42,340 bases of DNA from Candidatus Saccharimonadota bacterium (GCA_017645955.1 JAGCNM010000024.1:1-42340); one strand, 5' to 3'; counted from the stretch's first letter, positions 11,126 through 42,340 are shown. The notes: generated by a model from the letters alone, not told the origin. Made by a program: numbers and translations.

Positions 11126-11201
11126 TGGTCAGGGTGATCAGACTTGAACTGACGACCTCAGCGTCCCGAACGCTGCGCGCTACCAACTGCGCCACACCCT
11201 G
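11126..11201 (-). tRNA. tRNA-Pro (anticodon CGG)
   Basis: The acceptor arms CAGGGTG and CACCCTG pair over seven bases, with discriminator A and an encoded CCA. The anticodon loop TTCGGGA on a five-base CAGCG/CGCTG stem gives CGG. D and T arms are normal. It is the last tRNA in a minus-strand proline cluster, just before the flavodoxin gene. Confidence 0.92.
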
Positions 11202-11206
11202 ATAAT

Positions 11207-11278
11207 GTTAAAGATCAGACTTGAACTGACGACCTCAGCGTCCCTACGCTAAAGCGCTACCAACTGCGCCACACCCTG
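11207..11278 (-). pseudogene. Damaged tRNA-Pro copy
   Basis: The 5' half, D arm and T arm are nearly identical to the tRNA-Pro(CGG) gene next to it. The anticodon loop has only six bases (TAGGGA), and the 3' acceptor strand is replaced by CTTTAAC, which cannot pair with the 5' CAGGGTG. There is no CCA. It is best read as a partial duplication that has lost function. Confidence 0.7.
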
Positions 11279-11288
11279 AAATATAAGG

Positions 11289-11365
11289 TGGTCTGGGATA
11301 GGAGATTTGAACTCCTGACCTCACGCACCCCATGCGTGCGCGCTACCGGGCTGCGCCAATCCCAG
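11289..11365 (-). tRNA. tRNA-Pro (anticodon GGG)
   Basis: The acceptor arms CTGGGAT and ATCCCAG pair fully, with discriminator A and encoded CCA. The anticodon loop ATGGGGT on a CACGC/GCGTG stem gives GGG. Confidence 0.92.
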
Positions 11366-11381
11366 GACTGGTTATAAAAAA

Positions 11382-11457
11382 TGGTCTGGGTGACTGGACT
11401 TGAACCAGCGGCCTCGACTTCCCAAAAGTCGCGCGCTACCAACTGCGCCACACCCAG
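11382..11457 (-). tRNA. tRNA-Pro (anticodon TGG)
   Basis: The acceptor arms CTGGGTG and CACCCAG pair fully, with discriminator A and encoded CCA. The anticodon loop TTTGGGA on a CGACT/AGTCG stem gives TGG. It is the first gene of the cluster, about 10 bases from an extended -10 box. Confidence 0.92.
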
Positions 11458-17982: not shown

Positions 17983-19116
17983 ATGATTAGCGTAAATTGT
18001 AGCCCAGAGGTGAAGGAAGATGACCTCGCGAGGATTTTGAAGGAGATTCGAAAAGATGAAATGGGGGGATGGATGGAGCTGCCGCGAAAGATTGATATGG
18101 GGGAGTTTGTGCGAATTAAAGAGGCTGCGAAAAAGATTAGAGATGAGAGTGAGTATTTAGTTTGTATTGGGATTGGCGGATCATATCTTGGACATAAGGC
18201 GATTATTGAGGCTTTGAGGCCTACATCTGAAACGAAAATTATTTACGCTGGGAACTCTTTATCGCGACGTGAATTAGACATGGCTTTAGCGGAAGTAGGA
18301 GACCATGATTTTTCAGTAAATGTAATATCAAAATCGGGGACAACTTTAGAGCCCGCTATTGCGTTTAGTGAGTTTAAGAAGAAATTGATTGAAAAATATG
18401 GCGAAGAGGGGGCATATCAGAGAGTTTACGCGACGACGGATGCTAAGAAGGGTGCTTTGCATGACGAAGCGGTTGCAAATAAATATGAAAGATTTGTAGT
18501 TCCGGATAATATTGGTGGTCGCTATTCAGTTTTGACGGCGGTAGGACTGTTACCGTTAGCGGTAGCTGGAGTAGACGTTGATAAACTGCTTGAGGGGGCA
18601 GCGGAGGCGACTGACATAGTAGTTGAACCGGCTTCGAAATATGCATTTATGCGATATGAGTTAGGTAAGAAAGGCTACGATACGGAGGTTTTTGCGAGCT
18701 TTGAGCCGGCGACGATGTATTTTAATGAATGGTTAAAACAACTATTCGGAGAGTCGGAAGGAAAGAATAAACAGGGAATATTCCCGGCATCGGTGATTTA
18801 TTCGACTGATTTACATTCGCTTGGCCAGTTTATGCAGGATGGAAGAAGAAATCTTTACGAAACAATTATCGATTTTCCGACAGATAAGTTGAACGCTAAG
18901 GTTGTTCAGGCTGTAAGAGTTGCACATACAGAAGGCGGGATTCCGGTGCTTAACATTACAGTTTCAGATTTTAACGAAAAAGGATTTGGTGAGTTAATCT
19001 ATTTCTTTGAGCTTTCTTGTGCGATTTCGGCGAAGCTGTTCGGAGTTAATCCGTTCGATCAGCCGGGCGTTGAGGCGTATAAGAATGAGTTGAAAAAACT
19101 AATGGCGGAGGAATAA
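17983..19116 (+). CDS. pgi: Glucose-6-phosphate isomerase
   Basis: Interconverts glucose 6-phosphate and fructose 6-phosphate in glycolysis. Sugar-phosphate motif ISKSGTT is at 115-121, the family signature GGRYSVLTAVGLLP starts at 178, the catalytic glutamate block FGESEGK is at 255-261, and PFDQPGVEAYK at 357-367 is the second signature with its catalytic lysine. At 377 residues it is shorter than the usual 440-450 of the Bacillus-type enzyme, having lost N-terminal sequence rather than active-site parts. The start has a strong AGGAGG site. Its TAA shares a base with the arcC ATG (TAATG), linking a glycolytic gene to arginine catabolism in one transcript. Confidence 0.95.
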   Translation: MISVNCSPEVKEDDLARILKEIRKDEMGGWMELPRKIDMGEFVRIKEAAKKIRDESEYLVCIGIGGSYLGHKAIIEALRPTSETKIIYAGNSLSRRELDMALAEVGDHDFSVNVISKSGTTLEPAIAFSEFKKKLIEKYGEEGAYQRVYATTDAKKGALHDEAVANKYERFVVPDNIGGRYSVLTAVGLLPLAVAGVDVDKLLEGAAEATDIVVEPASKYAFMRYELGKKGYDTEVFASFEPATMYFNEWLKQLFGESEGKNKQGIFPASVIYSTDLHSLGQFMQDGRRNLYETIIDFPTDKLNAKVVQAVRVAHTEGGIPVLNITVSDFNEKGFGELIYFFELSCAISAKLFGVNPFDQPGVEAYKNELKKLMAEE

Positions 19117-20054
19117 TGAAGAAAAGGGTGGTTTTAGCGCTGGGGGGAAATGCTTTACAAAAAAATGGTGAAAAAACGGCAGAGGCGCAAAAAGCCGTAG
19201 CGGCGGATGTTGGGGAAATAGTCGCAGATTTAGCTGGAAAATATGAGATTATTGTTGCGCACGGGAACGGACCGCAAGTTGGAAATATTTTGATTCATGA
19301 GGAAACGGCGGCAACAGAAGGTGCACCGGCAATGCCGCTTGAGACCGCAGTAGCGATGAGCCAAGGTCAAATCGGATATTGGTTAACACAGGCGATTAAT
19401 AATGCGTTTTTAAAAAGGGGTAAGAATGCGAAAGTTGTAACTGTTGTTTCGCAGGTTGTAGTTGACAAGAATGATGCGGCTTTCCGAAATCCGACGAAGC
19501 CAATCGGACAGTTCTATAGCGAGAAAGAAGCGAAGAAATTAGCTAAAGAAAAGGGGTGGGTCGTAAAAGAAGATGCGGGGCGAGGATATAGAAGAGTGGT
19601 TGCGTCGCCGAAGCCGATTGATATTGTCGAAAAGAAGGCGATTTTAGATTTAGTTTCGGACGGGGCAATTGTGGTTGCGGCTGGCGGGGGCGGTATTCCA
19701 GTTTATCGAACGAAGATTCTTAAACGCCTAAAAGGAATTGATGCGGTGATTGATAAAGATTTTGCGGCGGAGAAACTAGCGGAATTGGTTAAGGCAGACA
19801 TTTTCGTTTCAGTGACGGCGGTACCGAATGTTTATATTAATTACGGCTTGCCGGAACAAAAGGCTTTAGAAAATGTTTCAGTTAATGAAATAACTTCGCT
19901 AAAGAAATATGGATATTTTAAGGCTGGTTCGATGCTCCCGAAGGTTGAAGCGGCGGCAAGTTTTGCGAAAAAAGGTGGAGTGGGGATCATTACGGACATT
20001 GATAGTTTGAAGATGGCACTTGCGGAAAAAGCCGGAACAATCGTGAAAAAATAG
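19116..20054 (+). CDS. arcC: Carbamate kinase
   Basis: Last enzyme of the arginine deiminase pathway: transfers the phosphate of carbamoyl phosphate to ADP, giving ATP, CO2 and ammonia. The N-terminal VVLALGGNALQ block, AHGNGPQVGN near 48-57, the MSQGQIGYWL block and GGGGIPVY near 200 are those of the amino-acid kinase fold carbamate kinases. Its 312 residues are the usual length. Translation is probably coupled to pgi through the TAATG overlap. It is followed 64 bases later by the ornithine carbamoyltransferase gene, which has its own promoter. Confidence 0.96.
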   Translation: MKKRVVLALGGNALQKNGEKTAEAQKAVAADVGEIVADLAGKYEIIVAHGNGPQVGNILIHEETAATEGAPAMPLETAVAMSQGQIGYWLTQAINNAFLKRGKNAKVVTVVSQVVVDKNDAAFRNPTKPIGQFYSEKEAKKLAKEKGWVVKEDAGRGYRRVVASPKPIDIVEKKAILDLVSDGAIVVAAGGGGIPVYRTKILKRLKGIDAVIDKDFAAEKLAELVKADIFVSVTAVPNVYINYGLPEQKALENVSVNEITSLKKYGYFKAGSMLPKVEAAASFAKKGGVGIITDIDSLKMALAEKAGTIVKK

Positions 20055-20066
20055 TGTGTTAAATGC

Positions 20067-20095
20067 TTGTGCTTAAGAAATAAGTAGCGTATAAT
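20067..20095 (+). promoter_or_regulatory. Promoter of argF/arcB-arcA-antiporter
   Basis: TTGTGC and TATAAT are 17 bases apart in the only sizeable gap of the arc block, just before a GGAAGGG ribosome site and the ATG at 20119. Confidence 0.55.
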
Positions 20096-20118
20096 TAAAT
20101 CATAAAAGGAAGGGCAAA

Positions 20119-21141
20119 ATGAATTTTTATGGGCGAGATTTCTTAAGAATTCTAGACTTTAGCGAAGAAGAACTTCGCTATATGTTGGAAACGGCAAAAA
20201 CCCTTAAAAGGTTTAAGCACAAAAAGAAAAATCACAAAATATTTCCAAATAATAATATCGCAATTATATTTGAGAAGACTTCGACAAGAACGAGGTGTTC
20301 GTTTGAGGTTGCGGCATATGATTTAGGGATGGGGGTAACCTATCTTGATCCGACTGGCTCTCAGATGGGACATAAGGAATCGATTGCGGATACAGCGCGA
20401 GTTTTGTCGCGTTTTTATGATGGGATTGAGTTTAGAGGTTTTAAACAGGAAACAGTTAATACGTTAGCCGAGTATGCTGATGTGCCGGTTTGGAATGGTT
20501 TAACTGACGAATGTCATCCAACGCAAGTCCTAGCGGACTTTATGACAATTGAAGAGCATTTCGGACACTTAAAGGGCCTAACTTTGGCGTTTGTAGGTGA
20601 TTCGAGGAACAATGTGGCGAATTCGTTAATGGCGATGAGCGCAAAGATGGGGGTGAACTTTATTTCGTGCGGACCAAGAGCGCTTCGTCCTGCGGATGAT
20701 TTAGTTGAAGAATGTCGTGCAATTGCGAGAAAAAATGGTTCGACAATCGTAGTGACGGACGATTTAAGAGATTTGGAAGGTAAAGTTGACGCGGTATATG
20801 CGGATGTGTGGCTATCGATGGGTGAGGATAAGGAAAAATGGGGTGAAAGAATTCAACAGTTAAAGCCATATCAGGTCACGATGCAATTGATGGACCGATT
20901 AAAGCCGAATGCAGTCTTTTTGAAATCGGAGCCAATTTTCCTTCACGCTTTACCATCCTTCCATAACTTGGAAACTTCAATCGCCCAAGAAGTTTACGAG
21001 AAATATGGAGTAAAGGAAATGGAAGTGACGGATGAAGTGTTCGAATCGGATCGTTCACTTGTATTCGAGGAAGCCGAAAATAGGATGCATACAATTAAAG
21101 CAGTAATGTTCTTAACATTATATAAAAAGGAGAAAAAATAA
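20119..21141 (+). CDS. arcB: Ornithine carbamoyltransferase, catabolic
   Basis: Splits citrulline with phosphate into ornithine and carbamoyl phosphate in the arginine deiminase pathway. The carbamoyl-phosphate loop STRTR is at 55-59, HPTQ at 133-136, and the SMG loop in DVWLSMGE at 229-236. The ornithine-binding motif usually read as HCLP is HALP here (276-279), so the conserved cysteine is an alanine. Length (340) is normal. The gene context (arcC, arcA, antiporter) argues for the catabolic direction; argF is the alternative name. Its stop overlaps the arcA start by one base. Confidence 0.95.
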   Translation: MNFYGRDFLRILDFSEEELRYMLETAKTLKRFKHKKKNHKIFPNNNIAIIFEKTSTRTRCSFEVAAYDLGMGVTYLDPTGSQMGHKESIADTARVLSRFYDGIEFRGFKQETVNTLAEYADVPVWNGLTDECHPTQVLADFMTIEEHFGHLKGLTLAFVGDSRNNVANSLMAMSAKMGVNFISCGPRALRPADDLVEECRAIARKNGSTIVVTDDLRDLEGKVDAVYADVWLSMGEDKEKWGERIQQLKPYQVTMQLMDRLKPNAVFLKSEPIFLHALPSFHNLETSIAQEVYEKYGVKEMEVTDEVFESDRSLVFEEAENRMHTIKAVMFLTLYKKEKK

Positions 21142-22376
21142 TGAAAAGTTCGATTTGCAACTTTAGCGAAATCGCTCCAGTAAAAAAGGTGTTGTTACAT
21201 CGACCGGGGGACGAGTTCTCAAACTTAACGCCAAATTCATTAAATAGGTTGTTATTTGATGAAATTCCGTATTTAAAAGTGGCTCAACAAGAACATGATG
21301 CGTTTGCGAATGCCTTAAGAGCAGAAGGCGTAGAAGTCGTTTATGTGACGGATTTGGTTGCCGAAGCTTTAGATGCTGGCGGTAGGACTGTGAGGAAGAA
21401 ATTTATTGAACAGTTTGTTGCTGAAGCTGGAGTAACGTCGGCAAAATTAGCAAAGTATTGTTTCGAATACTTAAATAGTTTTAAAGATAACCGTGACTTA
21501 GTAAAGAAATGTATTGCTGGTACGGATATTACTGAGTTAAAAAAGATTCGTAATATTTCTGGTTTTTATGCAACAAGAGATATTGGTAGAATGATTTTGG
21601 ATCCAATTCCAAACATCTATTGTCCACGAGATCCAATCGCAACGATTGGTCATGGTGCAACTTTACATCATATGTGGGCTGCAACGAGGAATCGTGAATC
21701 GATGTTCTTTGATTATGTATTCAAATATCATCCGTTTTACGATGACGTAAAGCTTTATTACGATCGCACTGAACCGTATTCAATAGAAGGTGGCGATGTA
21801 CAAGTATTGTCGAGAGAAGTAATAGCAATTGGAATTTCACAAAGGACAGAACCAGATGCAATTGCGACATTTGCAAAGAATCTCTTTAAGGATAAAAACA
21901 ATACCTTTAAATATGTACTTGCAATTGACATTCCGGACGAAAGAAGCTTTATGCATCTTGATACCGTGATGACTAGAATAGATGTAGATAAATTTGCTGT
22001 GCAAGATGCGATTATGGACATCTCGACGATTTATGAGATTACGAAGGGCACTGGCGGAGAATTAGACATTGTTGAAATTCATCAAAGTCTACAGAAGGTA
22101 TTAGAAAAGTACTTACATTTGAATAAGGTTGAGTTAATTAAATGCGGTAATGGACGTAGAATTGATGCTGAAAGAGAACAATGGAGCGATGGTGTGAACT
22201 TGTTCTGTGTGAAGCCGGGCGTAGTGACTGCTTATGATCGAAACTTTGTGACAAATGAGGCTCTCCGAAAGCACGGAATTAGAGTAATCGAGATTCCAAG
22301 TTCTGAGTTATCTAGGGGTCGTGGCGGAACGCATTGTATGACGATGGCGCTCGTCAGAGAGGAGGAAGAGCGATAG
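21141..22376 (+). CDS. arcA: Arginine deiminase
   Basis: Hydrolyses arginine to citrulline and ammonia, the first step of the pathway. Catalytic parts are all visible: the substrate aspartate in PRDP, EGGD in IEGGDVQV, the His-Asp pair in FMHLDTVMT, and the nucleophile C399 in GGTHCMTMAL. Two residues before RDP read CP, where FTRDP or YTRDP is common. The 411-residue length is normal. The gene is coupled to arcB by TAATG and lies 44 bases before the antiporter. For an organism without amino-acid biosynthesis this pathway yields ATP and ammonia from host arginine. Confidence 0.97.
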   Translation: MKSSICNFSEIAPVKKVLLHRPGDEFSNLTPNSLNRLLFDEIPYLKVAQQEHDAFANALRAEGVEVVYVTDLVAEALDAGGRTVRKKFIEQFVAEAGVTSAKLAKYCFEYLNSFKDNRDLVKKCIAGTDITELKKIRNISGFYATRDIGRMILDPIPNIYCPRDPIATIGHGATLHHMWAATRNRESMFFDYVFKYHPFYDDVKLYYDRTEPYSIEGGDVQVLSREVIAIGISQRTEPDAIATFAKNLFKDKNNTFKYVLAIDIPDERSFMHLDTVMTRIDVDKFAVQDAIMDISTIYEITKGTGGELDIVEIHQSLQKVLEKYLHLNKVELIKCGNGRRIDAEREQWSDGVNLFCVKPGVVTAYDRNFVTNEALRKHGIRVIEIPSSELSRGRGGTHCMTMALVREEEER

Positions 22377-22420
22377 ACGGGTTTTAGGGGGCAATAATAA
22401 TAAACTAAAGAGGAAAAGAA

Positions 22421-24157
22421 ATGTTTAGAAAGAAAAATCGAGGGAAGAAGCGCAGCCGAGCGATGCTGTCTGCGTATTCGATTATTATGATTCTAATCAT
22501 TCTTCTCGGTATCGTATCTCATGTTTTGCCAAAGCCGCAATATACTGCAGCTGTAGACGAAGCGGAAGTAAGCGAGGAAGTTGAGCTTACTGAGTCTGAG
22601 GATGCGGTACTAACGGAAGGTTTAGAATCAGAAGCGTCTGACGAGGAAGAAGCGGTTGATGAAGAATCGGTCGAGGTCCTCGCAGCTGAAGAAGAGGTAC
22701 TAGCATCTGAAAATGAAGAAAAGCTAACAGTTGGCGAAGAAATCTTAGCTGAAGGTGAATTGGCGATAGTCGAAGCTGAGACCTATGATACACTCGAAGC
22801 CTGTGAAGAAGTTTACGGCGAAGAGGGGTGTGCTATGGTTGATGGTTCTGGCGTGATTGGCGCGGAGCTTTATCAGATTTTAATGGCACCTATTTTAGGC
22901 TTTGCTGATGCTATTGATGTTTGTATCTTCGTAATGGTTCTCGGTGGGTTCTTAGCTATTATGGCTAAGACTAAAGCTCTTGAGACAAGCATCAAGATTT
23001 TAGTAAGGAAAATGCATGGCAAAGAATACTTATTGATTCTTTTGCTTATGTTCATATTCTCGATACTTGGTACTACTTACGGGTTCCTCGAGGAGAGCGT
23101 TGGCTTCTATGTATTGATTGCGGCAACTATGTATGCTGCCGGAATGGATCCACTAGTGGGCGTAGCGACTATCCTTCTCGGTGCAGGCTCGGGTGTATTA
23201 GGTTCGACTATTAACCCATTTGCTACGGGTGTAGCTGTTTCTGCAATGAAAGACGCTGGAATTGAGTTTAATCAAGGTACAGTGATTTTAATCGCCACAA
23301 TTCTATGGTTAACTACGTTAGCGATTTCAGCATTCTTTGTTGTAAAATATGCAAAGAAAGTTCAGCGCGATAAAGGTTCAACTTTCCTTAGCTTGCGCGA
23401 ACAAGCAATAGCTGAAAAGAAATATGCACATTTCCTTGAAGGAAAAGAAGAAACTGAAAAACTTACTGGTAGACAAATTGCCTCTCTTATTGTGTTTGGC
23501 CTAACTTTCCTCGTGATGATTGTTGGGTTTATTCCTTGGGGCGACTTTGGAATTACCTTCTTTGATTCATGGACGGGATGGTTGACGGGTTCACCGCTAG
23601 GTTTGTGGTGGTTCTATGAGGCGGCCCTCTGGTTCTTAATCGCTTCGATTATTCTGTCAATTATTAATCGTCAAGGTGAGCACGGTTTTGTCGATACATT
23701 TATCGATGGTGCGGATGATATGATTGGCGTAGTTTTGATTATTGCCGTAGCGCGTGGTGCATCGGTATTAATGGCTGAGACTGCGCTTGATAACTATATT
23801 ATCTATAACGCTTCGAATTTCTTGGCTACATTACCAGAAATGGCGTTTGTACCTTTGAACTACTTACTCCATATTGTATTGTCAATCTTAGTACCGTCAT
23901 CCTCTGGTCTTGCAACGCTTTCGACGCCAATTATTGCGCCGGTTGCAGCAAACTTAGGTTACAGTACTGATGTTGCAGCAATGACAATTGTAGCAGCGAA
24001 TGGTCTTGTTAACTTAATTACACCAACTTGTGGTGCAATTATGGCGGGTCTTGCGCTTGCGAAAGTCGACTACTCGACTTGGTTTAAGTGGGGGATTAGA
24101 GTTGTAGCTTGTATTGCGGTGATAAACATCGTAGTACTTTGTCTATTCTCGCTATAA
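22421..24157 (+). CDS. arcD: YfcC-family arginine/ornithine antiporter with acidic extracytoplasmic insert
   Basis: A 578-residue membrane transporter of the YfcC/DcuC-related group, which contains arginine-ornithine exchangers. After a basic N-terminus (RKKNRGKKRSR) and a first membrane segment (about 20-38) there is a stretch of roughly 95 residues (44-138) dominated by Glu, Asp, Ala and Val, with a Cys pair in ACEEVYGEEGC. It should face the outside if the basic N-terminus is cytoplasmic. Then come 10 or more hydrophobic segments, with family blocks TTYGFLEESVGFY, GAGSGVLGSTINPFATG and PSSSGLATLSTPI. Its place after arcA and the pathway context support arginine/ornithine exchange. The symbol is by role; ArcD proper belongs to another family. 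Confidence 0.85.
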   Translation: MFRKKNRGKKRSRAMLSAYSIIMILIILLGIVSHVLPKPQYTAAVDEAEVSEEVELTESEDAVLTEGLESEASDEEEAVDEESVEVLAAEEEVLASENEEKLTVGEEILAEGELAIVEAETYDTLEACEEVYGEEGCAMVDGSGVIGAELYQILMAPILGFADAIDVCIFVMVLGGFLAIMAKTKALETSIKILVRKMHGKEYLLILLLMFIFSILGTTYGFLEESVGFYVLIAATMYAAGMDPLVGVATILLGAGSGVLGSTINPFATGVAVSAMKDAGIEFNQGTVILIATILWLTTLAISAFFVVKYAKKVQRDKGSTFLSLREQAIAEKKYAHFLEGKEETEKLTGRQIASLIVFGLTFLVMIVGFIPWGDFGITFFDSWTGWLTGSPLGLWWFYEAALWFLIASIILSIINRQGEHGFVDTFIDGADDMIGVVLIIAVARGASVLMAETALDNYIIYNASNFLATLPEMAFVPLNYLLHIVLSILVPSSSGLATLSTPIIAPVAANLGYSTDVAAMTIVAANGLVNLITPTCGAIMAGLALAKVDYSTWFKWGIRVVACIAVINIVVLCLFSL

Positions 24158-36154: not shown

Positions 36155-36179
36155 AGACTCTAGAAAAGGAGTCTTTTTT
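36155..36179 (+). terminator. Terminator-like hairpin overlapping the recombinase ribosome site
   Basis: AGACTC and GAGTCT form a six-base stem with an eight-base loop, followed by a run of six T, one base before the recombinase ATG at 36181. The AAAAGGAG ribosome site (36164-36171) lies in the loop and 3' arm. The hairpin could end transcription from the upstream operon and also hold down translation of the recombinase. Confidence 0.65.
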
Positions 36180-36180
36180 G

Positions 36181-37017
36181 ATGAAAAAAATTGAAAAACA
36201 GGTTAAATCATATCTTTATTATTGTGAGAGAGTCAGGAGGATGTCGGAAACGACAATTAATTTTAAAGAATATGTAATAAATGAATTTATAAGAGTTTCT
36301 AGGTTAGGAGATTTGAGAAGGCTGAATAATAAGACTTTTGATAAATGGGTTTCATACGAGATGAGGAAAGGGGTTTCGGCGCGCTCTGTAAACACTTATA
36401 AGGCGATTGTTTTGGCGATGGTGCGATATTTTGAAGATACCGGGATGAAAGTCCCTTTGAATTTTAAGTTGGTTCAAAGCTTAAATGAGGGGGAATTGAC
36501 AAGAAAATTTTACACAAAAGAAGACATTGAAAAGGTAATACGCTATGCGGATTTGATGACGGAATTAATGATTCGGATTATGTTCGAGACAGGGATGAGG
36601 ATTGCGGAGTTAACGAGGCTTAGAGTTTCAAATTTCGAGGGAAGAAAGGTAAAGTTTATTGGAAAGGGGCGGAAAGCGAGAGAGGCATATATTAGCGAGG
36701 AGACGCATAATGCATTAGAAATTTTTATAGGCAACTACAATATCCGGGATTATTTGTGGGGGTTTCAGGCTATGAACGGAGAGCCGCCTACAACTAATAC
36801 GATTAGGAATCGGTTAAAAACTGCGTTTGGGGAGGCTGGGTTTGAGGGGTTTTATCCGCATGCTTTAAGGCATTCTTTCGCGACAAATTTACAAATAAAG
36901 GGAGCGTCGGTAGTAGAGATAAAAGAAATGATGGGGCATGAATCAATTGCGACGACCGAAAGGTATCTACACGGATTCGATGGGAGGTTAGAAGAGTTAT
37001 TCGAAAAATATCGTTAA
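36181..37017 (+). CDS. Tyrosine recombinase (Xer/integrase family)
   Basis: A 278-residue site-specific recombinase. An N-terminal SAM-like core-binding domain (1-100) is followed by the catalytic domain with all six residues: R140 in GMRIAEL, K162 in GKGRK, H227 and R230 in HALRHSF, H253 in MMGHESI and the nucleophile Y262 in TERYLH. Length and form are close to XerC/XerD/XerA, so it could be the chromosome-dimer resolvase. It could instead act locally, since it adjoins two surface cassettes with a 51-bp inverted repeat between them. I start at ATG 36181; a TTG just before is less likely. Its stop overlaps the convergent DUF916-like gene by four bases. Confidence 0.9.
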   Translation: MKKIEKQVKSYLYYCERVRRMSETTINFKEYVINEFIRVSRLGDLRRLNNKTFDKWVSYEMRKGVSARSVNTYKAIVLAMVRYFEDTGMKVPLNFKLVQSLNEGELTRKFYTKEDIEKVIRYADLMTELMIRIMFETGMRIAELTRLRVSNFEGRKVKFIGKGRKAREAYISEETHNALEIFIGNYNIRDYLWGFQAMNGEPPTTNTIRNRLKTAFGEAGFEGFYPHALRHSFATNLQIKGASVVEIKEMMGHESIATTERYLHGFDGRLEELFEKYR

Positions 37018-37958
37018 TTATCCCTTTTGCGAGCTTTAAAACGAGTAATGAGCCAGAATATGATTAATACTAGGGCAAAGATGATGACGAAGAGTAGCCA
37101 GAGTGGGCACATGATAATGGTTTTTTCGATAATTGAGGTTTCGCCGAAGATTCTAACTATTTGTTTGGCGCGGAAGATGCCGACTGAAGGTAATTCACAG
37201 GTTTGAACATGGTATCTCTCGGTTTCCGGTAAGATTAAACTAGTTTCGGGCTTTTCTTCATTTGTACAGATCTCTTCATCGTTAAAGAGTGGCCAAACTT
37301 GGAAGATATATTCAGCGTCGGTATGTACGTTGCCATTATTTTTAACCATAGAAGAAGCCTGGAGCGGTCCGTTTAGGATGAATGAGGGAATGTTGTTCTC
37401 AGTGATGGTGCCTTCTTCGCGAGTCTCACCGGCGACTTCGGCGTAAATAATGGAGGCGAATTGGAATTTTTGATCAATAGATATACTTCCTTCTACCGGT
37501 TGGTTGCTTGTGGTTTCGTCGATAACTAGAATAGTTGCGTATTGACCGCCGCCGGGGGCATCTTCTGGGACTTCGATAGAGTAACCGATAGTTGTTTTTT
37601 CGCCTGGGGCTAAGGTACCGCCAGTATTGTCGAGCTTAATCCAGTTCATGATTTGATTGTAGCTTGTGACATTAATGTGACTAATAGAACCATAATCATC
37701 GTTTGATTCTTCGGTTTTAGATTGACTAAAGGAGCCGATTTCTACTGAGTATTTTAAATCGCGTGTGCTGTTGGTTGAGTTTGATACTAAAAGAGAATTA
37801 TTGTAGGTTTCGCCAGGCATGAGGATTATTTTTTGGTATGGGGGAGAGACTGTCATTGAGTTTGAATCGGCAAAGGTAATTCCGTTAATAATTCCTAGAT
37901 TAAGACAGATGGTTAGTATTCCGAATACTAGGGTTTTAATAAAGTGATTGTTTTTCAT
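37014..37958 (-). CDS. DUF916-like cell-surface protein, left cassette gene 3
   Basis: A 314-residue secreted protein kept in the membrane by its C-terminus. A signal peptide (1-30, ending ITFA) is followed by MTVSPPYQKIILMPGETYNN, Ig-like beta domains with APGEKTTIGYSIEVPEDAPGGGQYATI, and a second domain with VKNNGNVHTDAEYIFQVWPLF. A C-terminal membrane segment follows (about 284-306, in CPLWLLFVIIFAL) with a basic tail. This layout matches DUF916/DUF3324 proteins found with WxL surface proteins in Gram-positive bacteria. It is a paralogue of the protein at 41016. It starts with AAAAGGAGG a few bases upstream and follows the 190-residue gene by 25 bases. Confidence 0.82.
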   Translation of the reverse strand: MKNNHFIKTLVFGILTICLNLGIINGITFADSNSMTVSPPYQKIILMPGETYNNSLLVSNSTNSTRDLKYSVEIGSFSQSKTEESNDDYGSISHINVTSYNQIMNWIKLDNTGGTLAPGEKTTIGYSIEVPEDAPGGGQYATILVIDETTSNQPVEGSISIDQKFQFASIIYAEVAGETREEGTITENNIPSFILNGPLQASSMVKNNGNVHTDAEYIFQVWPLFNDEEICTNEEKPETSLILPETERYHVQTCELPSVGIFRAKQIVRIFGETSIIEKTIIMCPLWLLFVIIFALVLIIFWLITRFKARKRDN

Positions 37959-37983
37959 TGACCTCCTTTTAATGTCATTTTAT

Positions 37984-38556
37984 TTAATCATGGTTTTTAC
38001 AAGAAAAACCTTTTAATTCGTAAAACTTCTTAAAATCTTCTAAGGTAAAATCGCCGGTTTTTTTATATTCGTCGTCATTGATAAAAAATAATTTTGCGAC
38101 GGTTTGGTTAATCTTTTTCGTTTCAGCGTAAAGTGATATTACAAGTTTACTTTTATGAGATGAGAAGACGGGATTGAGTGTTTCTTGATATACTCCATTG
38201 GCGCTCATGTATTTATTGTAATCGGCGTGCATGGCAGCTTTTGCGCTTTCGGCGGCATCGTCAGAATTAAAAGTCCCGTCATAGCGATAAGACATTTCTT
38301 TAACTTTTTTATCTGTAAACATTATTTTAATGCTATGCGTGAATCTCTGTGCAGTTTTAGATGTGAAGAAAGGGCTGTTTGGGCTAGAAGAAGAGCATTC
38401 AAGAGACTCGTAATCGTTTGCTTTTGATTGGGTTGTTGTATAGGATTCTTTTTTAGAGGTTAAAAACCAAACGATTATTAGAATAATACCAACGATTAAT
38501 ATTAAAGAAATCGTTTCGACGATATACTTATGATTCTTTTTTCTTTTTTCAGACAT
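37984..38556 (-). CDS. Small membrane-anchored protein, left cassette gene 2
   Basis: A 190-residue protein with a basic N-terminus, a membrane segment (about 13-32) and an extracytoplasmic domain of about 150 residues. There is one cysteine near the start of the domain (LECSSS) and one at the C-terminus (GFSCKNHD). The protein at 40422 has the same layout and ends NFSCEITN, with shared features such as a helix AAESAKAAMHADY against SSEAKQAEAYAQADY, so the two are diverged paralogues. The two cysteines may form a disulfide. The function is unknown. A strong terminator separates it from the surface-protein gene upstream, so it should be expressed at a lower level. Confidence 0.7.
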   Translation of the reverse strand: MSEKRKKNHKYIVETISLILIVGIILIIVWFLTSKKESYTTTQSKANDYESLECSSSSPNSPFFTSKTAQRFTHSIKIMFTDKKVKEMSYRYDGTFNSDDAAESAKAAMHADYNKYMSANGVYQETLNPVFSSHKSKLVISLYAETKKINQTVAKLFFINDDEYKKTGDFTLEDFKKFYELKGFSCKNHD

Positions 38557-38588
38557 TTGATTTTACCTTATCTCTATTGTTTTTCTAT

Positions 38589-38619
38589 AAGAAAATCCCG
38601 GCCTACCCGGGATTTTCTT
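38589..38619. terminator. Intracassette terminator, left cassette
   Basis: A perfect 13-base stem (AAGAAAATCCCGG with CCGGGATTTTCTT) and five-base loop between genes 1 and 2 of the left cassette. It probably limits read-through from the surface-protein gene into the two anchored-protein genes. Confidence 0.8.
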
Positions 38620-38637
38620 ATTTTTAAATAACTTTCT

Positions 38638-39306
38638 TTAGCTGGCTGGGTTATAAAGGGTGTATTTAACAGCACCAGTATAAGTACCAGTATCCTGAGT
38701 TTGGTCTACATATACCTGATAGGTAATTGTGAAGGCATTAGCGAGGCTACCAGAACCAGTTACAATGTCAGCCTCAGTAGAAGGAACCGCTGCGTAGGCA
38801 TTGCTATAACCGGTAGCATAAGAAGCACCAGAAGCCGTAGCAATCTTGAATGCCCAGTTAGAAGTAGGACCACTTGTAGCTGTACCAGCGACGATTTGGT
38901 CAGTAGCATTAGCATTATAGAGATCATTATTGTTAGCACCAGCACCCGCGCCAACAGCAGTTAACTTCCAACCAGCTTCAGCACCAGCCCCAGCACCAGT
39001 GTTACAAGACACGTCGATGCTGTTATCAGCAGTTGTACCAGAAGTTTGATCAGCAGTACCACCAATATCAGTCCTAAGCTCACCGTTGTGCATTTCTACA
39101 GTGTAGCTGTTGGTAAGATGTGGAGCCGATCCATTACCACCAGTCGTAGAGTTGTTGTTTACGATTGTACAACCAGCTGGAATGTTGACATTTAATGTGT
39201 CAGTGATATCGCCAGCTGGAGTTGCTGCTGCAAATACTCCTGCGAATGGCAAAACTGCTAAACCAAGAGCCGCTACGCCCGCGCCAGCAATTATTGATTT
39301 TTTCAT
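38638..39306 (-). CDS. Secreted WxL-like surface protein, left cassette gene 1
   Basis: A 222-residue secreted protein with a clear signal peptide (AGVAALGLAVLPFAGVFA, cleavage near 26). The mature part is rich in Thr, Ala, Asn and Gly. It opens with DTLNVNIPAGCTI, has a second cysteine (DVSCNTG), and ends DTGTYTGAVKYTL, which resembles the end of WxL domains with YTL in place of WxL. No membrane anchor is present, so it may be held to the wall by partners such as the DUF916-like protein. It is a paralogue of the protein at 39732. Start and AGAGGAG site lie within the 51-bp conserved leader. Confidence 0.8.
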   Translation of the reverse strand: MKKSIIAGAGVAALGLAVLPFAGVFAAATPAGDITDTLNVNIPAGCTIVNNNSTTGGNGSAPHLTNSYTVEMHNGELRTDIGGTADQTSGTTADNSIDVSCNTGAGAGAEAGWKLTAVGAGAGANNNDLYNANATDQIVAGTATSGPTSNWAFKIATASGASYATGYSNAYAAVPSTEADIVTGSGSLANAFTITYQVYVDQTQDTGTYTGAVKYTLYNPAS

Positions 39307-39312
39307 ATTGAT

Positions 39313-39363
39313 TTTTTCTCCTCTGCAGTTTTAAGCAGAATTAATTTATATTTTGTGTTAAAT
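39313..39363 (-). repeat. 51-bp inverted repeat, left copy (conserved leader)
   Basis: It is 49/51 identical, in inverted orientation, to 39677-39727. It holds the last part of the left leader: ATTTAACACAAAATATAAAT, then a TCTGC/GCAGA hairpin (outer pair weaker in this copy) and the GAGGAG ribosome site. Confidence 0.9.
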
Positions 39364-39395
39364 ATAAAACGCTCTTTTGCATTAGAGATTTTCGT

Positions 39396-39401
39396 ATTAT
39401 A
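39396..39401 (-). promoter_or_regulatory. -10 box of the left surface-protein gene
   Basis: TATAAT on the minus strand, about 90 bases before the ATG at 39306. The -35 region is poor, so it looks weaker than the opposite promoter. Confidence 0.5.
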
Positions 39402-39455
39402 GGTAGGTTTAAAAGACTAGGTCTATATAGTTATAAAAACAGGGGAATGGATAAT

Positions 39456-39478
39456 AAAAAAACACCTATAAGTAGGTG
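39456..39478 (-). terminator. Terminator of the structured RNA
   Basis: CACCTA and TAGGTG form a six-base stem with a four-base loop, followed by seven T on the minus strand. Confidence 0.7.
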
Positions 39479-39545
39479 ATTTTGAGTGCTTGCTTCCAGA
39501 CTTAGGAGAATCCATGGTCGGTTTTAGAGTAAACCCTACAAGCAC
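39456..39545 (-). ncRNA. Candidate structured RNA or attenuator between the cassettes
   Basis: A minus-strand unit of about 90 nt. It begins at 39545 with GTGCTTG, which pairs with CAAGCAC (39487-39493 on the plus strand) to close a junction. Inside are a GGTTT/AAACC hairpin and a second irregular arm. It ends in a terminator at 39456-39478. GTAGG, just after the first strand of the closing stem, is complementary to CCTAC in the terminator's 5' arm, so an alternative antiterminator is possible. It may be a free sRNA or a riboswitch-like leader of the left cassette. I recognise no known RNA class. Confidence 0.5.
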
Positions 39546-39551
39546 ATTTAT

Positions 39552-39560
39552 ATCATATCA
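39552..39560 (-). promoter_or_regulatory. Extended -10 promoter of the structured RNA
   Basis: TGATATGAT on the minus strand ends six bases before the G that opens the closing stem of the candidate RNA, so the predicted transcript begins exactly with that stem. Confidence 0.5.
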
Positions 39561-39626
39561 AAGATGCAGCATAAGATAATGGTTGTGGAAAAGTTTAGAA
39601 AAAACTTAAATAAACATAAAAAATAC

Positions 39627-39655
39627 TTGACAATGTTATTGTGCTTATGTAAAAT
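39627..39655 (+). promoter_or_regulatory. Strong promoter of the right surface-protein gene
   Basis: A consensus TTGACA (39627-39632) and TAAAAT (39650-39655) are exactly 17 bases apart, driving a leader of about 70 bases before the ATG at 39732. Confidence 0.8.
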
Positions 39656-39676
39656 GGGAAATGTTAAAGGTTATAC

Positions 39677-39727
39677 ATTTAACACAAAATATAAATAATT
39701 TCTGCTTAAAACTGCAGAGGAGAAAAA
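39677..39727 (+). repeat. 51-bp inverted repeat, right copy (conserved leader)
   Basis: Inverted partner of 39313-39363, with two mismatches in 51. It contains TCTGC and GCAGA arms with an eight-base spacer, directly before the GAGGAG ribosome site. This could be an RNA hairpin near the ribosome site or a recombinase core site in DNA. Confidence 0.9.
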
Positions 39728-39731
39728 TAAT

Positions 39732-40325
39732 ATGAAAAAAATATTAGCAGGTGCCGGCGCGGTGGCTTTGGCTGCTTTGCCAATGGCTGGTGTATTTGCT
39801 CAAGATTTGAATGTGACTGATACTCTTCAGATCACTGTTAATTCGGCTTGTACGATAACGGAAGGAAGTACTACCGATGGACTTGACAACAAGGATACTA
39901 CTTATGCTGCTACGGTAGCGAACGGTGCGGAGGCAGATTTTAGTAGTACACATACTGGTACTCACGCTTTCCATGTAAATTGTAACAGCCAGGGTGGTTG
40001 GTCTTTCTCGGCTACGCCACAAAACCTTACTGGTTATGTCGCTGCCAATGACTCAACGACTAATGGTGATAACATTAACTTTGTAGCTTCGGGTAGTTAT
40101 GAGGCCAGTGGTGCTACTGGTATGTGGACTGCTGAGATTACGGCGCCAAGTGGTATTACGGTTACACAACCTTCTACGGCTGGAACTGCTAACACGGTGA
40201 TTAATGCTACTAACGCTCAGGCTGCTAATGTTGAAATCACCTCAGAATACCATGCCTATGTAGGTACCCAAACTACAGCAGGTTACTATGAAGGTACGAT
40301 TGCCTATACTTTGGCTGCTCTCTAA
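39732..40325 (+). CDS. Secreted WxL-like surface protein, right cassette gene 1
   Basis: A 197-residue secreted protein. The signal peptide (AGAGAVALAALPMAGVFA, cleavage near 23) is almost that of the left paralogue. The mature protein begins DLNVTDTLQITVNSACTI, has a second cysteine in HVNCNSQGGWSFS, is rich in Thr, Ala, Asn and Gly, and ends TAGYYEGTIAYTL. Conserved ends and a diverged middle suggest the two proteins share attachment and differ in what they show to the outside. It is driven by the strongest promoter of the region and followed by a stem-loop before gene 2. A major surface protein role is inference. Confidence 0.8.
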   Translation: MKKILAGAGAVALAALPMAGVFAQDLNVTDTLQITVNSACTITEGSTTDGLDNKDTTYAATVANGAEADFSSTHTGTHAFHVNCNSQGGWSFSATPQNLTGYVAANDSTTNGDNINFVASGSYEASGATGMWTAEITAPSGITVTQPSTAGTANTVINATNAQAANVEITSEYHAYVGTQTTAGYYEGTIAYTLAAL

Positions 40326-40345
40326 TCTTAATTGATTAGTATTAG

Positions 40346-40370
40346 TAATCCCCCTTTAACAGGGGGATTA
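40346..40370 (+). terminator. Intracassette stem-loop, right cassette
   Basis: TAATCCCCC and GGGGGATTA form a nine-base stem with a seven-base loop, in the same place as the left cassette terminator. The T-run is poor, so it may attenuate or protect the mRNA 3' end more than stop transcription. Confidence 0.6.
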
Positions 40371-40421
40371 TTGGTATGGTTTTTGTTGTGAAGCTATGTT
40401 ATCATTGAAGAAAGGAGATGA

Positions 40422-40982
40422 ATGGACAGTGAGAAGAAAAAAAGAATAAACTATGTTGTTTGTTTTCTTATTTTGATAATTGTTATAGTGTTATTGTTTT
40501 TGTTTTTATTGTTTAGTGGGAGAGAATCGGATGATATCAAGGTATCTTGGGAAGAAAAGAAGATAGGTTTAAAGTGCACTGATTCAACATTATTACATCC
40601 AGCTTTACGGGATTATACCCCAAAGTCACATACTAATACAATTATGGCGAATTTTGTTGACGACAAACTATCGGCTATTACTTTATACTATGTTGGGAAT
40701 TATAGTTCGTCATCAGAAGCAAAACAGGCAGAGGCATATGCTCAAGCAGATTATGGATTAATCTTAGCTAAAGAATACGGCGTCGATACAGAATCTTTCT
40801 CGCATTCTTTCATGATTGATGGAAACATAGTGAGCTTAACCATTACGGCAGAAAATGGTGATATTAGTGATAGGACGGCGCCGTATTTCTTATTGGAACA
40901 GAACAGATCTTTTCCGAAGAGCATGGATGGCGTAAAGCAACGGTATGAAGAGAGGAATTTCTCTTGTGAAATAACTAACTAG
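40422..40982 (+). CDS. Small membrane-anchored protein, right cassette gene 2
   Basis: A 186-residue protein with a basic N-terminus (SEKKKRIN), a very hydrophobic membrane segment (about 10-31) and an extracytoplasmic domain. It has one cysteine early in the domain (LKCTDST) and one at the C-terminus (NFSCEITN), as in the left paralogue. The middle contains ALRDYTPKSHTNTIMANF and SSSEAKQAEAYAQADYG. No enzyme motif is visible. The start has an AAAGGAG site. It overlaps no neighbour; gene 3 starts 33 bases downstream. A structural or assembly role with the surface and DUF916-like proteins is likely from conserved order only. Confidence 0.7.
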   Translation: MDSEKKKRINYVVCFLILIIVIVLLFLFLLFSGRESDDIKVSWEEKKIGLKCTDSTLLHPALRDYTPKSHTNTIMANFVDDKLSAITLYYVGNYSSSSEAKQAEAYAQADYGLILAKEYGVDTESFSHSFMIDGNIVSLTITAENGDISDRTAPYFLLEQNRSFPKSMDGVKQRYEERNFSCEITN

Positions 40983-41015
40983 ATGATACAATTAATATTA
41001 AATAAAGGAGGTAAA

Positions 41016-41975
41016 ATGACTTCGTTTAGAAGAGTCTTGTATGGATTGGTGGGGACGATAATAATGATGATTGGGGTATTTTTGTCTCAGGAACCGGTTT
41101 TGGCTTTTTCGGTGTCACCTATGAAACAGACTGTGTCTTTAGTTCCTGGTCAAACCTACTCAAATAGAGTAATAACTTCTTTGCCGCTAGACGCTGGCAA
41201 AGATATGCATTATGAGGTTTCGGTAGTACCATTTAAGGTGAATGACAAAGATAATAACTATAGTATTGACTTAAGTGGTGCAGATGAGCGGAATGAAATA
41301 GTTAAGTGGGTTTCGTTATCTGATGGAGTAAACACAGTAAAGAGCGGGGATGTCTTGACTGGGGAATTAGCTCCTGGGAAAAAGATTGATTTTATTTATA
41401 CCATTAATGTTCCTGAGTCCGTAATGGGTGGTGGTCAATACTTTGCAGTTTTAGTTAAATCAATTCCTAATTCGTCTGATGATGGTGACGAAAACTTAAT
41501 AATATCGGAGACATATTCAATTGCGTCTGTGGTGTATGCAGAATTACCTGGTGAAATTAAAATGGACGGGGCTTTAAAGGAGAATAATATAAATGGTTTT
41601 CTTCTTAACCCGCCAATAACAACGTCGTTTGTTGCTGAGAATACTGGGAATACGCATTTTGCTGTTACTTATTATTTGCAGGTTTATCCTCTGTTTTCTG
41701 ATGAGGAAATCTATACTAATGAAGAAAAGCCTTCAATGGATTATGTATTGCCTGAGACGTCGAGATACATTTCTCAAACCTGGGATGAAGCGCCGTCAAT
41801 CGGTATTTTTAAAGTAAGACAGACCGCTTATTATGATTTTGCAGAAGACAAACAAAGTGTAACGGAAAGAATTGTGATTATTTGCCCATTATGGCTATTA
41901 TTTATAGTTATTTTTGCGATAACGATGTTTGTTATGTGGCTGATTGCTAGGCTAAGAGCGCGCCGTAAAGAGTAG
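41016..41975 (+). CDS. DUF916-like cell-surface protein, right cassette gene 3
   Basis: A 319-residue secreted, C-terminally anchored protein, paralogue of the protein at 37014. A signal peptide (about 1-30, ending PVLAFS) is followed by VSPMKQTVSLVPGQTYSN, then LAPGKKIDFIYTINVPES and MGGGQYFAVLV, then FVAENTGNTHFAVTYYLQVYPLF. The C-terminal membrane segment starts at CPLWLLFIVIFAI, with a basic tail (RLRARRKE). The family match is DUF916/DUF3324 of WxL loci. I start at the ATG at 41016, which has AAAGGAGGT five bases upstream; an in-frame ATG at 40983 overlaps the end of gene 2's region and has no such site. Confidence 0.82.
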   Translation: MTSFRRVLYGLVGTIIMMIGVFLSQEPVLAFSVSPMKQTVSLVPGQTYSNRVITSLPLDAGKDMHYEVSVVPFKVNDKDNNYSIDLSGADERNEIVKWVSLSDGVNTVKSGDVLTGELAPGKKIDFIYTINVPESVMGGGQYFAVLVKSIPNSSDDGDENLIISETYSIASVVYAELPGEIKMDGALKENNINGFLLNPPITTSFVAENTGNTHFAVTYYLQVYPLFSDEEIYTNEEKPSMDYVLPETSRYISQTWDEAPSIGIFKVRQTAYYDFAEDKQSVTERIVIICPLWLLFIVIFAITMFVMWLIARLRARRKE

Positions 41976-42276: not shown

Positions 42277-42340
42277 AAAAAGGTAATTAAGGGCACTGAT
42301 AGTGGATGCCTTGACAATCAATACCGATGAAGGCCGTAGA
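42276..42340 (+). rRNA. rrl: 23S ribosomal RNA, 5' end (partial)
   Basis: The sequence AGTGGATGCCTTGACAATCA, followed by CCGATGAAGGCCGTAGA, is the conserved 5' end of 23S rRNA (GGTGGATGCC...GAGGCGATGAAGGACG in E. coli). The exact 5' base is uncertain by several positions. The gene runs off the end of the window. It directly follows its own promoter and leader and is not downstream of a 16S gene. Confidence 0.9.

Follow-up and report, generated by a model that had tools for sequence, protein, structure and literature searches.

A mirror-image pair of three-gene surface-protein cassettes in a Saccharibacteria genome very probably constitutes a site-specific DNA-inversion (phase-variation) switch. 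The pair lies in a stretch of 42,340 nucleotides from a Candidatus Saccharimonadota bacterium (hereafter the window; GCA_017645955.1, JAGCNM010000024.1:1-42340), which is contig C42, positions 1-42340, of a 60-contig, 912-kb genome. Each cassette encodes a secreted pilin/WxL-like protein (gene 1), a small two-cysteine membrane protein (gene 2) and a membrane-anchored WxLIP-like protein (gene 3) that probably binds and holds the gene-1 product. In the mechanism that we propose, the sole conserved promoter is located between inverted repeats that double as gene-1 5′ leaders, and an adjacent tyrosine recombinase would bring about crossover between these repeats, at the core TTRACACAAA(A)TATAA, turning round a promoter segment of roughly 300 bp and moving transcription from the right cassette to the left one and back. 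Since leader and ribosome site would be restored in full by each crossover, expression of either cassette could be normal, and the benefit may consist in antigenic or adhesive variation towards the bacterial host, phages or animal immunity.

Cassettes, repeats, promoter and recombinase

The two cassettes diverge from a 425-bp intergenic region (39.3-39.7 kb), each in the order gene 1, gene 2, gene 3 (Table 1). Left and right proteins are paralogous beyond chance for all three pairs, with identities of 38% for gene 3 (E 1e-75), 27% for gene 2 (E 8e-10) and 30% for gene 1 (E 7e-12). An earlier note on this DNA had described two mirrored trios with the same gene order and a stem-loop after gene 1, and both features were recovered, the stem-loop being present in 32 of the 37 gaps between genes 1 and 2 of the window and its relatives; it probably curbs read-through, which would leave gene 1 in excess. 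The same note had read the pair as a duplication, which holds for the paralogy of the trios and is otherwise incomplete: mirror pairs are also present in other species, and a simple recent duplication was ruled out by the gene-3 tree, where the left and right copies of the window fall in different deep clades, as they fall in different clades for most loci (exceptions L088 and L093). Its further claim, of greater similarity among leaders and signal peptides than among mature proteins, was correct for the leaders of the window (89% identity, against 36% at the amino acid level for mature gene 1), weak for its signal peptides (61% of nucleotides) and strong for those of most relatives, whose signal-peptide DNA is 86-100% identical within the majority of loci.

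The gene-1 leaders form a 58-nt inverted repeat, with arms 93% complementary and 299 nt apart, and the DNA immediately upstream of the arms is unrelated (52% identity). Mean identity within loci was higher than between loci for the leaders (90 vs. 76%) and for signal-peptide DNA (86 vs. 69%), the corresponding values for mature gene-1 DNA being 57 vs. 54%. This pattern is best interpreted as homogenisation of the switch ends linked to recombination, together with replacement of cassettes.

The repeats bound the segment that holds the sole conserved promoter, and the cassette not linked to it would be silent. Of the recombinase loci, 13 hold two or more copies of gene 1; in each of them TTGACA-17-TA(A/T)AAT precedes exactly one copy and is missing from the others. 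This promoter is placed 99-108 nt before the gene-1 start codon and is followed by GTTAAA and an AGGTYAT-type leader sequence. It was also found in 17 of the 19 leaders of single-type loci. Among promoterless gene-1 copies similarity begins abruptly at TTTAACACAAA(A)TATAA, with unrelated DNA before it, and in single-type loci the same leader stretch usually reads TAACAT or TAACAA instead of TAACAC. The motif TTAACACAAA(N)TATAA occurred in 19/20 genomes of the recombinase clade vs. 7/374 others, where it stood at gene-1 leaders in five genomes and in unrelated genes in two. A private change to TTGACAC is common to both leaders of locus L082, though the rest of its promoterless leader has diverged, and the likely crossover core can thereby be confined to some 20 nt. 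Nine motif copies are found no more than 150 nt from a contig end, and one contig of genome G388 stops exactly where a 22-nt block that it has in common with the other leader stops; as a sign of mixed orientations these contig ends are only a hint, since repeats break assemblies too.

The adjacent recombinase is XerA/XerC-like, below the equivalog cut-offs of those families, and has all the catalytic residues (R141, K163, H228, R231, H254, and Y263), which are conserved without exception in this copy and in 20 relatives; the genome has another tyrosine recombinase, a better PF00589 match, on contig C5. In the first set of loci, gathered by a gene-3 search, recombinase homologs were linked to exactly eight, those with mirrored or flipped gene-1 copies (Fisher p 2e-7 for mirrored or multiple gene 1 vs. 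recombinase presence). When the 394 family genomes were searched with the recombinase only, 12 further genomes were found at 49% identity or more: eight had gene 1 on the same contig, two had the leader motif at the contig end, and in the remaining two the contig ended within about 300 nt of the recombinase. Matches at 48% identity or less were mostly located elsewhere. In four loci (L083, L087, L088, and L093) the recombinase stands between the two gene-1 leaders, inside the segment that would invert.

Promoter orientation and rival explanations

For comparison, every locus was set with its recombinase on the left. The half of the window segment that carries the promoter then matched L086 (80% over 150 nt) and L090 (76%) in inverted orientation, and L082, L085 and L077 in direct orientation, the upstream genes being the same in the window, L086, L082, L085 and L090 (47-96% identity). 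The right cassettes of the window and L086 are orthologous (63-73% identity); the promoter faces the right cassette in the window, and in L086 it points the other way. In L090 the recombinase gene has two in-frame nonsense codons and genes 2 and 3 are broken in the promoterless right cassette, while genes 1 and 3 are intact on the promoter side. This locus may represent a natural locked state, as expected if switching alone preserves unexpressed cassettes, although it is one case and could reflect an error of the draft assembly.

Some points weigh against inversion by the linked recombinase. It is deduced from comparison of sequences; the two opposite orientations were observed in separate species that share the gene context and not within one population, and the left cassettes of the window and L086 are 35-50% identical, only the right side being clearly orthologous. 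The association between motif and recombinase (Fisher p 1e-25) is descriptive, because the choice of motif followed inspection of the recombinase loci and the genomes, being related, are not independent. A weaker promoter-like site, TAGACC-18-TATAAT (39425-39396, 10/12), lies upstream of the left leader, so that the left cassette may retain some expression; chance alone produces many promoter-like sites (20 found vs. 15.6 expected). Locus L094 has the recombinase with one promoterless cassette, and in genome G216 a recombinase of 49% identity stands at a contig edge without the motif. As to function, Saccharibacteria bind their hosts with type IV pili (PMC12206443), so that attachment need not depend mainly on these cassettes.

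Three other explanations were considered. The recombinase could be a mobile-element integrase through which entire cassettes are inserted or exchanged at a hot spot, in which case the pair would be an array of captured cassettes; we hold this reading to be unlikely. Arrays of extra gene-1 copies do exist, and the close genomes of L082 (5706-8524) and L090 (5788-8610) form a cassette-replacement hot spot, with upstream genes and flanks 89-96% identical and surface cassettes unrelated (34-44%), from which it follows that the cassettes were replaced. Capture would not, however, account for a single correctly placed promoter or for mirror-pair repeats that are inverted and not direct, and the recombinase is XerA/XerC-like in size, no mobile genes having been recognised beside it. 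Cassette exchange and inversion may both occur.

It appears quite improbable that the locus is a static divergent pair, derived from an old inverted duplication or an acquired cassette, of which one copy lost its promoter and whose leaders resemble each other owing to constraints on translation or mRNA stability. Leader stem-loops and promoter are kept also in single-cassette loci without recombinase, so that part of the leader similarity is indeed constraint, but leader identity is higher within loci than between them though the cassettes come from different clades, and a static pair would predict neither one promoter in 13/13 loci, nor both orientations in one gene context, nor the linkage of the recombinase. 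Silent copies would moreover decay, as in L090, where the recombinase is dead. Dose control, in which the divergent cassettes are expressed together to build a single filament or platform that mixes the two subunit types, seems very improbable: cassettes that are both intact in the window and most relatives would suit it, as would the weak site upstream of the left leader, whereas in all 13 loci the conserved promoter is on one side only and single-cassette genomes manage without a second cassette.

Cassette proteins, distribution and genomic surroundings

Table 1. Features of the proposed switch locus, in coordinates of the window.
Feature	Position	Strand	Remarks
Tyrosine recombinase	36178..37017	+	279 amino acids; PF00589 E 2e-29; proposed invertase of the switch
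Left gene 3	37014..37958	-	WxLIP-like (DUF916-like), two Ig domains, signal peptide, C-terminal transmembrane helix; fold taken from the paralog's model
Left gene 2	37984..38556	-	Small membrane-anchored protein, two conserved cysteines
Left stem-loop, between genes 1 and 2	38587..38621	-	Terminator/attenuator-like
Left gene 1	38638..39306	-	Secreted pilin-like subunit; fold taken from the paralog's model; cassette presumably OFF in this assembly
Left repeat arm (leader of left gene 1)	39313..39370	-	Core motif TTAACACAAAATATAA at 39346-39361
Spacer between repeat arms	39371..39669	.	Proposed invertible
Conserved promoter TTGACA-17-TAAAAT	39627..39655	+	Toward right cassette; best promoter match in the region, 11/12
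Right repeat arm (leader of right gene 1)	39670..39727	+	Core motif at 39679-39694
Right gene 1	39732..40325	+	Secreted pilin-like subunit; cassette presumably ON in this assembly
Right stem-loop, between genes 1 and 2	40339..40377	+	Found after gene 1
Right gene 2	40422..40982	+	Small membrane-anchored two-cysteine protein
Right gene 3	41016..41975	+	WxLIP-like anchored protein; reading frame open from 40983

A Pfam/NCBIfam scan gave no convincing direct match for the six cassette proteins of the window, and profiles of genes 1 and 3 found nothing significant among the sequences of solved structures. Right gene 3 more likely starts at 41016, behind GGAGG, than where its reading frame opens. 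In the gene-3 family, 29 of 43 members match PF06030 at E≤0.1 (best 3e-5); the two window proteins had no WxLIP match in the Pfam scan, and the curated cut-off was not reached, a paralog on contig C49 scoring 21 bits vs. a cut-off of 27.3. The AlphaFold2 model of gene 3 (predicted local distance difference test, pLDDT, 90.8; strands in residues 43-300, helix 303-329) consists of two tandem Ig-like domains followed by a transmembrane helix, as in WxLIP (PF06030, PF11797 and transmembrane helix). The solved structure that fits it best is the Enterococcus faecium WxLIP (9i25/9i1y; VIA Z 13.3 over 230 residues, Foldseek 4e-11), and the model also resembles PapD-like chaperones (Z about 11). Gene 3 is a distant WxLIP-like protein and not a filed member of the family. 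The same genome carries two more gene-3 paralogs outside the window (G000:C49:6292-7158 and G000:C43:26081-26917), and in L040, L041 and L043 a 287-amino acid relative of gene 3 belongs to a conserved locus with proteins of 731 and 1070 amino acids.

For gene 1, the AlphaFold2 model (pLDDT 84.6) has a pilin-type Ig fold and resembles the chaperone-usher pilin domains CfaB/CfaE/Csu/Fim with modest scores (Z 6-8, up to 8.1 over 116 residues; Foldseek E 1.5e-3). None of 41 members has two WxL motifs or a WxL in the last 20 residues, the C-terminus being of Y-x-L/V type, and no match to PF13731 or to any Pfam family was found. The E. faecium WxL was not among the listed matches of the gene-1 model, which is not evidence against homology. 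Where the earlier note had proposed a WxL/DUF916-like system, the DUF916-like nature of gene 3 and the reduced genome are thus borne out, the designation of gene 1 as WxL is not supported, gene 1 being no canonical WxL protein, and the interpretation as a whole is in part supported, its key omissions being the one conserved promoter inside the inverted repeat and the recombinase. Larger gene-1-like proteins (330-381 amino acids) with an apparent C-terminal membrane anchor were observed in L028 (3830-4822), L033 (5403-6548) and L030 (4378-5463), those of L028 and L033 within the segment between gene-1 leaders.

According to an AlphaFold2 prediction for E. faecium, a hairpin of WxLIP turns into a strand that runs parallel to one of WxL (PMC10599100). 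Strand addition may, by analogy, be the way in which gene 3 holds gene 1. A bolder and rather doubtful extension would be that gene-1 subunits form alternative donor-strand filaments, held by a membrane-anchored PapD/WxLIP-like chaperone and switched by recombinase-driven promoter inversion in an ultrasmall episymbiont, as a one-membrane relative of chaperone-usher assembly that changes bacterial-host or phage recognition.

The gene-3 family was found in 240 of the 394 genomes searched and the switch in about 5% of the 394; the genomes of gene-3 relatives are labelled Saccharibacteria (one "uncultured bacterium") and come mostly from ruminant gut or rumen samples. One cassette is the usual state, a subset having mirror pairs or additional copies of gene 1, in some cases flipped. 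Relatives with additional copies, some of them flipped (L075, L081, and L091), could shuffle among more than two variants. No relatives were found in viral contigs, and thus no sign of a phage-borne cassette. Tandem gene-1 arrays without recombinase were also seen ahead of genes 2 and 3, with up to five copies in L037 (3729-11734) and three plus three in L117 (3662-10863).

Elsewhere in the window, its end (about 42286-42340), just downstream of the right cassette, resembles by eye the 5′ start of a 23S rRNA gene. Three successive tRNA-Pro genes (anticodons CGG, GGG, and TGG) occupy 11126-11457, and translations of 19116-24157 indicate an arginine deiminase-type cluster with carbamate kinase, ornithine carbamoyltransferase, arginine deiminase and a large membrane transporter. 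Clusters of this type are known in animal-associated Saccharibacteria.

Comparison with known systems

Patescibacteria are organisms of very small genome size that grow on other bacteria, and to our knowledge next to nothing is known of how they vary the surface exposed to host, phage or animal. A dedicated inversion switch that maintains two complete, alternative surface cassettes within less than 1 Mb of genome would imply strong selection for surface change, in parallel with mycoplasmas, another reduced-genome group. The switch could therefore be an entry point to questions of host range and phage escape, and the finding of the gene-3 family in 240/394 genomes places WxLIP-like proteins well outside Firmicutes. 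No relevant open-access paper was found that joins Saccharibacteria or Patescibacteria/candidate phyla radiation (CPR) with WxL, invertible promoter, DNA inversion or phase variation.

As for the cargo, Firmicutes WxL/WxLIP clusters (PMC10599100) share the build of gene 3, with two Ig domains and a transmembrane helix, and a small secreted partner in the same operon; the cassettes described here differ in a gene 1 without the dual WxL motif, the extra two-cysteine gene 2, the lack of a large WxL protein and the phylum. The gene-1 and gene-3 models recall chaperone-usher pilins and PapD-like chaperones, respectively; no usher was seen and no sequence similarity found.

The closest parallel to the proposed switch is offered by the vpma genes of Mycoplasma agalactiae and the vsp genes of M. 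bovis, where silent surface genes with a shared 5′ leader depend on a unique promoter and an adjacent Xer1-type tyrosine recombinase, the putative recombination site of vpma lying within -1 to -72 of each start codon (PMC2268961). Unique promoter, shared leaders, adjacent tyrosine recombinase and reduced genome are common to both, whereas vpma/vsp is a cluster of lipoprotein genes and the system proposed here consists of three-gene WxLIP-like cassettes, mostly as two facing alternatives, in a patescibacterium. In the sap S-layer system of Campylobacter fetus, an invertible segment carries the only promoter between divergent surface-protein genes with conserved 5′ ends, and its inversion depends on RecA-type homologous recombination. 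The likeness in architecture is less close than that to vpma/vsp, and the mechanism differs from the linked tyrosine recombinase and short repeats of our locus. In Escherichia coli, FimB and FimE invert the fimS promoter by site-specific recombination, switching one gene or operon ON or OFF. Invertible promoters also occur in mpl of Mycoplasma penetrans (PMC2268961). Both control surface structures by site-specific promoter inversion; they act as ON/OFF switches of one gene or operon, whereas the promoter described here would serve either of two cassettes. The locus therefore appears to be a switch of the known vpma/sap kind in a new phylum and with a different cargo, apparently the first reported in Patescibacteria.

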